From the NCBI RefSeq assembly GCF_001006045.1, contig NZ_CP011267.1, positions 62,001 through 126,000 on the forward strand: a stretch of 64,000 bases of DNA. The letters are read 5' to 3'. This document shows, piece after piece, positions 2,087 to 38,155 of the stretch. Below the pieces are notes generated by a model. That model searched no databases. It was not told where the DNA came from and was given only the letters and a program-made list of their open reading frames with translations. Position numbers and translations under genes: made by a program. Within the stretch, counting starts at the first letter, position 1, and every line of letters starts with the position of its first letter. Source of the stretch: Geoglobus ahangari. GTDB lineage: Archaea; Halobacteriota; Archaeoglobi; Archaeoglobales; Archaeoglobaceae.

Positions 2087-3304
2087 ATGATGATTCTCTC
2101 CGGAAAGCTCATCATCGGCAGAGATCTCGTCACAGCAGGCATGAAAATAGAGGAGGGGAGGATCGTAGAGATAAGCAAGCAGCTCACCGGCAAGAGGCTT
2201 AAAGGGCTCATACTGCCCGCCGGAATAGACGTTCACGTCCACCTTAGAGATTTTGAGGAGAGCCATAAGGAGACGATAAGGAGCGGCACTCTCTCCGCAC
2301 TGCACGGCGGGATTTGCCTTGTTGTTGACCAGCCAAACACCCGCCCATTCATAGACTCCGCAGAAAAGTACGAGAGGAGAGTGAGACTGGCGGAGAAACA
2401 CCTCAACGTTGATTATTCCCTCAACATGGGGCTAACGAGGAGGAATTCCGACAGAATAAACGAGATCGTGGGTGAGCTCAAAGAGAAGGGCTACAACCCC
2501 GCTGTGGGCGAGGTGTTCCTGCAGCACGACAACCCGGAGTTTCAGGTTGACCCAGAGATTGTGAGAGATGTCGAGCACCTCACAACAATACACGCCGAAC
2601 TGCCCGAGTTCGTGGAGTCAAACGAGATCCCAAACTTCCTGCACAGGGACAGGAGGGCCGAGATAGAGGCGGTGAAAAAGCTCGCCCCCCTCGGAAGGTA
2701 CTTTTGCCACATCTCGACGAGAGATGCTTTTGAGACAATCACCCCATCCCCATCGCTCGTGGAGGTAACCCCCCACCACCTCCTCCTCGACAGCTCTGAG
2801 TACGAGAGGCTGAACGGGTTCGTGAACGTGAACCCCCCTCTGAGAGAGAGGGGCGACAGGGAGTTTCTGCTCGAGAACTTCTCGAGGATAGACGTGCTGG
2901 CCTCAGACCACGCCCCCCACCTTCCGGAGGAGAAGGAGCGTGGAGCCTCAGGCTACCCCGGCGTGGAGACAATGTACCCGCTGATGATGGGGCTCGTGTT
3001 TTATGGAAGGGTGAGCGTCTTCGAAGTCGTCGAAAAGATTGCGAAGAACCCGGCAGAGATCTTCGGGTTCGAGGGATACGGGGAGATAAGGGTCGGGAAC
3101 TACGCCAACCTCGCAGTTTTCGACATATCGAGGGTTGAGAGGGTGAGGGCAGATTCGCTCCACAGCCTCTGCGGCTGGACTCCCTTTGAAGGATTCCCAG
3201 CCATCTTCCCCCACACGGTCGTGCTGAGAGGGGAGATCGTGAAGGAGGGTGATGAGGCTGTCGAGGGTTTGGGGGAGGTTTACAAGAGCGGATCAGGTTT
3301 TTAA
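2087..3304 (+). CDS. pyrC: Dihydroorotase
   Basis: 405-residue class I dihydroorotase of the amidohydrolase superfamily; interconverts carbamoyl-aspartate and dihydroorotate in pyrimidine synthesis. Seen: the metal-binding HxH in DVHVHLRDF near residue 50, the QPNTRP segment, a conserved HAEL around residue 167, HISTRDA around residue 208 and ASDHAPH with the catalytic Asp near residue 273. Two ATG codons start the ORF (2087 and 2090). There is no Shine-Dalgarno, consistent with a leaderless message. Divergent from ftsZ. No other pyrimidine genes are adjacent. Confidence 0.95.
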
Positions 3305-3325: not shown

Positions 3326-3445
3326 ATGGACGATGACGAGCTTCTCGACTACTACTTCGAGCTCAACATGAGGAGGGAGGTCTGCAGGAGGGAGCAGCTC
3401 AACAAGAGGTTCGTCGAGGCAAAGCTGAAGAGGTCGAGGGAGTGA
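3326..3445 (+). CDS. Tiny charged ORF, 39 residues
   Basis: ATG-to-TGA ORF starting MDDDELLDYYFEL and ending in a basic stretch (KLKRSRE), with an acidic-aromatic head and an Arg/Lys-rich tail. It begins 22 nt after the pyrC stop. A TTTTTAAG box at about 3296-3303 lies roughly 26 nt before the ATG, so a leaderless transcript is possible. Codon use resembles the neighbouring genes (AGG Arg, GAG Glu). I recognise no family. Its shortness makes coding status uncertain. Confidence 0.45.
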   Translation: MDDDELLDYYFELNMRREVCRREQLNKRFVEAKLKRSRE

Positions 3446-3450
3446 TAAAG

Positions 3451-3459
3451 CTTATTAAC
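3451..3459 (+). promoter_or_regulatory. Putative TATA box for the H/ACA RNA
   Basis: CTTATTAAC, centred about 25 nt before position 3480, where the long stem of the candidate guide RNA begins. This spacing is what archaeal TATA boxes show relative to the transcription start. Confidence 0.45.
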
Positions 3460-3479: not shown

Positions 3480-3538
3480 TGCTCCGCTTCCCACGCCCGT
3501 GTGACGAGCATGAGCATGGGTCGGTTGGCGGAGCAACA
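3480..3538 (+). ncRNA. Candidate H/ACA box guide RNA
   Basis: Single-hairpin RNA with all parts of an archaeal H/ACA guide. Lower stem: 3480-3487 pairs with 3528-3535 (8 bp, TGCTCCGC/GCGGAGCA). Upper stem: 3496-3502 pairs with 3514-3520 (7 bp, two being G-U). Above it G3503-A3504 and G3512-A3513 can form tandem sheared G-A pairs with a preceding 3-nt bulge, i.e. a K-loop for L7Ae. An ACA box (3536-3538) directly follows the lower stem, and 15 nt separate the upper stem from ACA, within the 14-16 nt rule. The pocket arms are 3488-3495 and 3521-3527, predicting a target close to CAACCG-UN-GUGGGAA. The target has not been checked against rRNA. Confidence 0.65.
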
Positions 3539-3595: not shown

Positions 3596-3626
3596 TTCAG
3601 GACTCTGGTTGCAACAGGTGGTTGTT

Positions 3627-5885
3627 ATGGGGATTCTGTGGCTCAATGAGATAGGTAAGGATGACATACCGCTGGCCGGCGGAAAGGGGGCGAACCTCGG
3701 AGAGCTTTTGAGGAACGAAATTCCCGTTCCGAACGGTTTTGTGGTTGACAGCAGGACGTTTCTCGAGTTCATGGAGGCCACGGGCCTCTGGTATCAGGTA
3801 AACGACATGCTCAGGGGGATCGATGTAGAGAACACAGACGAGCTGAACAGCGTGTCTGAGAAGATCAGGAAGCTCATAGAGTCAGCCGAGATCCCGGAGA
3901 ACATAGAGAGGGACATAAGGAACGCGTACAGGAAGCTCTGCGAGGAAGAGGGAGAGGAGGTCTTCGTTGCCGTAAGGAGCTCTGCTACGGCAGAAGATCT
4001 GCCTGAGGCGAGCTTTGCCGGGCAGCAGGAGACGTACCTGAACGTGAAGGGAGAGGATGAGGTTGTTGACAAGGTCAGGAAGTGCTGGAGCAGCCTGTAC
4101 ACGCCGAGGGCAATCTACTACAGGGTCCAGCAGGGGTTCAAGCACGAGGATGTGAGCATCGCCGTTGTTGTGCAGAAGATGGTCAACAGCGAGAAGAGCG
4201 GAGTCATGTTCACCTCCCACCCCGTCACAGGAGAGAAGCTCTGCATAATCGAGGCCGCCTTCGGCCTTGGAGAGGCAATAGTGAGCGGGGCGGTCAGCCC
4301 TGACACGTACGTCTACGACAGGGTGAAGAGGAAGCTTGTGGAGGTAAACGTCGCTGAGAAGAAGATAATGATCACAAAGAACGAGAAGGGTGAGACCGTA
4401 ACCTTGGAGCTCCCTCCGGAGAAGGCAAGGGAGAGGGTGCTCTCCGACGAGGAGATAGAGGAGCTCGTCAAGTTTGCCGAGCTCATTGAAAACCATTACG
4501 GCCACCCACAGGATGTTGAGTGGGGAATCGAGAAGGGTAAGGTCTACATCCTCCAGTCGAGGGCGATCACGACCATAAAGGGCAAGAAGGAGGCTGAGAC
4601 CGTGAAGGGGGACCTCAAGGTGATTCTGAAGGGTCTTGGAGCCTCTCCGGGAATTGGAGTGGGCAAGGTCAAGATAATCTCGAGCGAGAAGGAGATAAAC
4701 AAGGTCGAGGAGGGCGACGTCCTCGTGACCACGATGACCACGCCGGACATGGTTCCGGCGATGAAGAGGGCATCGGCGATAATAACCGACGAGGGCGGAA
4801 TGACGTGTCACGCGGCGATAGTAAGCAGAGAACTCGGAGTTCCGGCGGTTGTTGGTACGAAGGAGGCAACCAAGGTGCTCAAGGACGGAATGGTCGTCAC
4901 AGTGGATGGAGAGAAGGGAGTTGTGTACGAGGGGGCGGTGGAGATAGAGAGGAAGGAGGACAAAAAGACCGAGGTCGTCGCGAAGGCCAAGATAATAACC
5001 GCAACGGAGGTCAAGGTGAACATATCGATACCGGACGGTGCTAAGAGGGCCTACGAGACCGGAGCGGATGGAGTGGGTCTGTTCAGAATTGAGCACATGG
5101 TTCTCGGCCTGCCCAAGCACCCGATGAAGTACATAAGGGACGGGGAGATAGAGGAGTACATCCAGAAGCTCTACGAGGGAATGAAGGCCGTTGTTGACAC
5201 GTTCTACCCCAAACCCGTCTGGATAAGAACCCTCGACGCCCCAACGGATGAGTTCAGAGCGATGGAGGGCGGAGAGAACGAGCCGATCGAGGCAAACCCG
5301 ATGCTCGGGTTCAGGGGTATCAGAAGAGACCTCGTCGAGGACATACACTTCAGGGCGGAGATAAGGGCGATCAAGAGGCTTGTGGACGAGGGATACACCA
5401 ACGTTGGAATAATGCTGCCGCTCGTCACGAGGGTCGAGGAGGTCAGGAGGGCCAAGCAGATAATCGAAGAGGAGGGTCTGCCGCTCAGCAAGATAGAGTT
5501 CGGTGTGATGGTTGAAACCCCCGCGGCCGCGCTGATAATCGAGGATCTCGTGAGGGAGGGCATAGACTTCGTGTCCTTCGGCACCAACGATCTCACCCAA
5601 TACACCCTCGCGGTGGACAGAAACAACGAGAACGTCGCGTATCTCTACGACGAGACCCACCCAGCAGTTATGAAGCTCATCGAGCACGTGATCAGGGTGT
5701 GCAAGGAGCACGGAGTGAAGACGTCGATATGCGGACAGGCCGGAAGCTATCCGCACGTCGTGGAGAAGCTGGTGATGCTCGGAATAGACAGCGTGTCGGC
5801 CAACCCCGATGCTGTTGAGAGGGTGAGGGAGACGGTGGCGAGGGTTGAGAAGAAGATAATGCTCGACAAGCTGAGGGGTCTCTGA
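3627..5885 (+). CDS. ppsA: Phosphoenolpyruvate synthase
   Basis: 752-residue PEP synthase (pyruvate, water dikinase): pyruvate + ATP to PEP + AMP + Pi, the entry to gluconeogenesis. Domains in order: N-terminal nucleotide-binding domain (start MGILWLNEIGKDDIPLAGGK), swivelling phosphohistidine domain with GGMTCHAAIVSRE (His395), and C-terminal PEP/pyruvate TIM barrel with FGTNDLTQYTL and the catalytic Cys in SICGQAGSYP (about Cys702). A TTG at 3609 is in frame, but ATG 3627 has AGGTGG six bases upstream and was chosen. The stop overlaps the next ATG (TGATG). With the pyruvate carboxylase parts elsewhere in the window it links pyruvate to sugars. Confidence 0.96.
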   Translation: MGILWLNEIGKDDIPLAGGKGANLGELLRNEIPVPNGFVVDSRTFLEFMEATGLWYQVNDMLRGIDVENTDELNSVSEKIRKLIESAEIPENIERDIRNAYRKLCEEEGEEVFVAVRSSATAEDLPEASFAGQQETYLNVKGEDEVVDKVRKCWSSLYTPRAIYYRVQQGFKHEDVSIAVVVQKMVNSEKSGVMFTSHPVTGEKLCIIEAAFGLGEAIVSGAVSPDTYVYDRVKRKLVEVNVAEKKIMITKNEKGETVTLELPPEKARERVLSDEEIEELVKFAELIENHYGHPQDVEWGIEKGKVYILQSRAITTIKGKKEAETVKGDLKVILKGLGASPGIGVGKVKIISSEKEINKVEEGDVLVTTMTTPDMVPAMKRASAIITDEGGMTCHAAIVSRELGVPAVVGTKEATKVLKDGMVVTVDGEKGVVYEGAVEIERKEDKKTEVVAKAKIITATEVKVNISIPDGAKRAYETGADGVGLFRIEHMVLGLPKHPMKYIRDGEIEEYIQKLYEGMKAVVDTFYPKPVWIRTLDAPTDEFRAMEGGENEPIEANPMLGFRGIRRDLVEDIHFRAEIRAIKRLVDEGYTNVGIMLPLVTRVEEVRRAKQIIEEEGLPLSKIEFGVMVETPAAALIIEDLVREGIDFVSFGTNDLTQYTLAVDRNNENVAYLYDETHPAVMKLIEHVIRVCKEHGVKTSICGQAGSYPHVVEKLVMLGIDSVSANPDAVERVRETVARVEKKIMLDKLRGL

Positions 5886-37970: not shown

Positions 37971-38155
37971 TCGTTCTCACACCTCCTGATCCAGAACCCC
38001 TTTTGCTTCCTCAGCATCCTCCTGTACTTCCCGTACGGATCCTCCGGGGAGAAGCGCGGTGGAATTGGCATGTACGTTTTCCCACCACACGCTGGGCAGA
38101 CTTCGCTCAGCGTGTAGCGCGCACAACTGCAGCACTTCCTGATTCTGGACTTCAT
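37967..38155 (-). CDS. nop10: H/ACA RNP protein Nop10
   Basis: 62 residues. N-terminal zinc ribbon KCCSCARYTLSEVCPACG followed by the invariant PPRFSPEDPYGKYRR linker and a C-terminal helix. Nop10 binds Cbf5 and shapes the pseudouridine synthase active site. With gar1 (26700-27026) and L7Ae (21905-22273) it makes three of the four H/ACA proteins in the window. It begins 1 nt after the aIF2alpha stop. Confidence 0.97.
   Translation of the reverse strand: MKSRIRKCCSCARYTLSEVCPACGGKTYMPIPPRFSPEDPYGKYRRMLRKQKGFWIRRCENE

Follow-up and report, generated by a model that had tools for sequence, protein, structure and literature searches.

We analysed a window of 64,000 nucleotides (nt) of the Geoglobus ahangari genome (NZ_CP011267.1, positions 62,001 to 126,000 of the forward strand); the positions given below are those of the window. 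At 3480-3538 on the plus strand, between pyrC (dihydroorotase, 2087-3304) and ppsA (phosphoenolpyruvate synthase, 3609-5885 as called), lies a hairpin that a first-pass annotation had read as an H/ACA guide RNA. Comparison with related genomes, a match to the Pab91 family and a site in ribosomal RNA (rRNA) supported that reading. Our conclusion, a strong assignment, is that the hairpin represents a gene for a box H/ACA guide RNA, and the mature RNA probably corresponds to about this span.

The lower stem is formed by UGCUCCGCU (3480-3488) and GGCGGAGCA (3527-3535), and the upper stem by GCCCGUG (3495-3501) and CAUGGGU (3515-3521). Between them a 5′ guide, UCCCAC (3489-3494), and a 3′ guide, CGGUU (3522-3526), line an internal pseudouridylation pocket, and box ACA (3536-3538) follows directly after the lower stem, as in the archaeal box H/ACA class. 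The apical loop (3502-3514) consists of UGA (3502-3504), CGAGCA (3505-3510) and UGAG (3511-3514). At the level of sequence this is a K-turn or K-loop above the upper stem, in which the two UGA motifs could form tandem G-A/A-G pairs and so make a putative L7Ae site. Folded alone, the hairpin gave -31.3 kcal/mol (z = -3.3). The two stems, the pocket, the apical G-A loop and the ACA were thus as first described, while two figures changed: the lower stem, given as 8 base pairs (bp), has 9 when the top U-G pair is counted, and the distance from the upper stem to ACA, given as 15 nt, is 14 nt, or 15 nt if the basal G-U pair of the upper stem is opened. The rules described for such guides are a target U some 14-16 nt away from ACA and a productive fold (PMC4652768, PMC3608112). 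With a GA stem of 10, a 3′ guide of 5 nt and a lower stem of 9, the hairpin has the ‘10/5/9’ productive fold described in PMC4652768.

The layout was rare in the DNA around it. We used a strict descriptor consisting of a lower stem of 9 nt with 8 or more pairs, a 5′ guide of 5-8 nt, a 7-bp upper stem, a GA/GA apex, a 3′ guide of 5-6 nt and ACA. On both strands of the window it matched only 3480-3538, and it found nothing in 60 dinucleotide shuffles. A permissive Rfam scan returned one meaningful match, to Pab91 (RF02795), which covered all 57 model positions and fell short, at 40.8 bits (E = 9.3e-7), of the 71-bit cut-off. The outcome of this covariance-model scan, which the first-pass annotation had suggested as a check, agreed with its proposal.

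Homologues of the hairpin were found in 40 of the 57 Archaeoglobales genomes by nucleotide search. A covariance model, for which 38 distinct copies served as the basis, raised this number to 46. One copy lies at C1:413564-413622 of a relative that we take to be A. fulgidus DSM 4304, and another in a genome that is presumably Ferroglobus placidus. The model also detected homologues in two genomes that belong to a different family of the class; under strict filters it detected no further one among 391 genomes sampled across the phylum. When GTDB genomes were scanned with a pattern, 37 stretches matched, and each title named an Archaeoglobi lineage; plasmid records contained no match.

The alignment of the 38 distinct sequences showed that the two stems are maintained by compensatory changes, as the first-pass annotation had anticipated. 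Pairing was possible in 97.4% of cells, versus 91.3% in shuffled alignments and at most 50.9% when the structure was slid along the sequence. Changes on both sides of a pair occurred in 7 of 16 pairs and 40 cells, spread over the lower stem (3 of 9 pairs, 96.5% of cells paired) and the upper stem (4 of 7 pairs, 98.5%). None of 500 shuffles equalled the alignment in paired cells, in two-sided pairs or in score, a comparison to be read with the caution that the alignment holds related sequences, which were collected by similarity. Both UGA motifs, the CAC and CGGU of the pocket and the ACA (38/38) were invariant, and the last U of CGGUU was nearly so. This is the pattern that would be expected for a K-loop, for those ends of the guides that lie closest to the target U and for the ACA box.

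The target proposed at first, CAACCG-UN-GUGGGAA, was absent from the rRNA strand within 3 mismatches. It was replaced by AGACCG-U-C-GUGAGAC, which had the best simple pairing score when the rRNA operon was scanned in the sense direction; its 3′ duplex contains a single C-A mismatch. The expectation that rRNA would offer a site whose pocket position is a U was thereby borne out at 23S U2661, which is E. coli U2593. Both guide strands pair with GACCG-UC-GUGAGA around an unpaired UN: CGGUU pairs with GACCG on the 5′ side of the target U, with one wobble, and UCCCAC pairs with GUGAGA on the 3′ side, with the mismatch. The sequence of the site did not differ among the 24 Archaeoglobi genomes in which it was readable. 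Pab91 modifies P. abyssi 23S U2685 in vitro, and the same U is its in vivo target (PMC6138745; the target is also given in PMC4652768). U2661 probably corresponds to this U2685, since the Rfam-consensus Pab91 guide fits the same site, a correspondence made without an alignment of the P. abyssi rRNA. Pairing thus predicts for the Geoglobus RNA the same U whose modification RF02795 guides.

We favour, with a probability of about 0.9, the reading that the RNA is a single-hairpin box H/ACA guide transcribed on its own, that it represents in the Archaeoglobales what Pab91 is in Pyrococcus, and that it directs pseudouridylation of 23S U2661. Pairing energies in relatives are consistent with it. Ferroglobus-type guides pair fully with the U2661 site, and their duplex energy of -11.2 kcal/mol is well separated from the next best uridine in 23S or 16S rRNA (-3.5 kcal/mol); for the A. 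fulgidus-type guide the corresponding values were -10.8 and -3.8 kcal/mol.

Several observations weigh against this reading. The curated gathering threshold of RF02795 is reached neither in the window nor in the relatives (35.7-49.1 bits), and at curated thresholds Rfam had no match anywhere in the window, so that the hairpin was left unannotated by Rfam. The label ‘Pab91-type’ accordingly refers to the same predicted target and layout, not to membership of RF02795 by Rfam’s rule. In all seven Geoglobus guides the fourth base of the pocket, counted from the junction, is C and not U, which creates the C-A mismatch. The energy of the Geoglobus guide at U2661 was -6.4 kcal/mol, level with 23S U350 at -6.5 kcal/mol; pairing at U350 is interrupted in both duplexes. 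Finally, the 5′ duplex (CGGUU/GACCG, one wobble), which is the same in nearly all copies, gave -4.6 to -4.9 kcal/mol, above the cut-off of -6.0 in PMC4652768, although that cut-off came from RNAsnoop and is not directly comparable. In the same study the energy of the 5′ duplex discriminated active guides and that of the 3′ duplex did not (PMC4652768). We regard the assignment of U2661 as the target, predicted from pairing, as strong for the family and as good but not certain for Geoglobus.

The mismatch is also the basis of the alternative that survives best, namely that the guide has drifted in Geoglobus, so that it modifies another RNA or no longer modifies U2661 efficiently while its relatives still do. 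Such a drift would fit the retention of UUCCCAC in 7 of 7 Geoglobus genomes, even though the three whose site was read completely have GUGAGA as the target, and also the weakening of the 3′ duplex from -6.6 kcal/mol in Ferroglobus to -1.8 kcal/mol in Geoglobus. On the other side, RACCG-UN-GUGGGA, which the Geoglobus pocket would match, had no occurrence in the genome, in a search that did not extend to wobble pairing with transfer RNAs and other RNAs. We consider drift unlikely, at something like one chance in eight. Similarly low odds are given to a broader proposal: that in Geoglobus, and likewise in other genera with a changed 5′ guide, the guide either has a new target or acts by way of a 3′ duplex that is mismatched or bulged, the pocket evolving against a fixed rRNA site, with one genus having lost the RNA and kept the site.

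A different pocket change was seen in genus g11, where the guides (L043, L044, L048 and L058) contain UGUCCAC. Unlike the C-A mismatch of Geoglobus, this sequence could pair with GUG-A-GACA if the target A were bulged.

A second search of the 11 genomes that lack the RNA, with E up to 10, yielded only scores of 17.2 and 14.8 bits. These 11 include genus g3 (G009-G014), in which the RNA was not found in six genomes, one of them a single-contig chromosome, even at this E-value. The target was unchanged in three of these genomes (G009, G011 and G014, with the site read in L083, L097 and L099). In genus g3 the guide RNA has apparently been lost and the rRNA site kept.

The hairpin lies 70 nt upstream of the called ppsA open reading frame (ORF) and on the same strand, which could suggest a cis-acting element or terminator of the pyrC-ppsA region, such as a ppsA leader hairpin. 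Gene context spoke against this. Either or both of pyrC and ppsA adjoin the RNA only in Geoglobus and partly, on the pyrC side, in one other genus; elsewhere the same RNA stands beside unrelated genes, including a RadA-like gene in several genera (recognised by eye, not by family search). A ppsA leader or terminator was rejected on account of this changing context. The RNA also has a promoter-like box of its own. An A-rich stretch resembling a B recognition element (BRE), followed by a TATA-like box, TTATTAA, forms a putative promoter at 3447-3458 on the plus strand, 22-33 nt before the hairpin. Its TATTAA-type box, placed 25 nt before the 5′ end by the first-pass annotation, was seen close to there, at -27 to -22. 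In 35 of the 42 loci compared, the hexamer most like a TATA box begins at -27 to -30 relative to the hairpin, with an A-rich stretch before it, and the remaining upstream sequence is poorly conserved. The aligned box supports a promoter belonging to the RNA, with transcription probably starting near the hairpin, and leaves a cis-acting role very improbable. A chance hairpin or coding sequence, which short ORFs of 20-51 amino acids crossing the region might suggest, is the least probable explanation of all and was refuted by the comparative data: chance was excluded by the full-length Pab91 match and the covariation in 38 distinct homologues, together with the invariant unpaired motifs and the lack of shuffled matches.

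Another ORF, of 39 amino acids (MDDDELLDYYFELNMRREVCRREQLNKRFVEAKLKRSRE), was found at 3326-3445 on the plus strand between pyrC and the guide RNA. It is present at the same place in two other Geoglobus genomes with 72-81% identity, and it had no NCBIfam match.

Genes for protein partners of an H/ACA guide were found in the genome. Cbf5 was detected with 494 bits, and Nop10, with 84 bits, lies in the same window as the guide RNA, at 38003-38155 on the minus strand (G000:C1:100003-100155). If the RNA is a Pab91-type guide, as we favour, its apical K-loop would bind L7Ae, and its lower stem and ACA would bind Cbf5 together with Nop10 and Gar1. The pocket, with UCCCAC on the 5′ side and CGGUU on the 3′ side, would pair with 23S GACCG-U-C-GUGAGA, and U2661 would be presented to Cbf5 for isomerisation to pseudouridine. 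The candidate substrate of the guide RNA is GACCGUCGUGAGA.

This analysis adds to the Archaeoglobales a conserved guide RNA that was missed by the threshold of Rfam, although its A. fulgidus homologue may have been predicted earlier. A directly testable prediction is that the peptidyl transferase region carries a pseudouridine at the position of E. coli U2593; the modification guided by Pab91 would then reach further than Pyrococcus and Thermococcus. A natural comparison is also offered, in that the same rRNA site is shared by genomes that have the guide, genomes whose guide is mismatched and genomes that lack the guide altogether.

Weaker matches of our covariance model in related genomes (L115:533-590, L116:535-594 and L117:507-568) look like a second H/ACA guide family, which shares the layout and the apical UGA...AAGCAUGA loop with the RNA described here but differs in guide sequences and stems. 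The validated A. fulgidus motifs Af4.1, Af4.2b, Af46 and Af190 belong to the same RNA class and come from the same archaeal order, but their targets, S1167, L2601, L2639 and S1004, are other positions than that of the Pab91-type guide, and no Pab91-type guide is named among them (PMC4652768). The closest known system is Pab91 of Pyrococcus abyssi. The Geoglobus RNA differs from it in falling below the Rfam cut-off, in largely different stem sequences, in two more bases in the apical loop and in the one C-A mismatch to the target. The two RNAs are alike in being single hairpins of the same layout with ACA, in the pocket ends CAC and CGGU, in the full-length alignment to the covariance model and in the rRNA uridine that they are predicted to modify.
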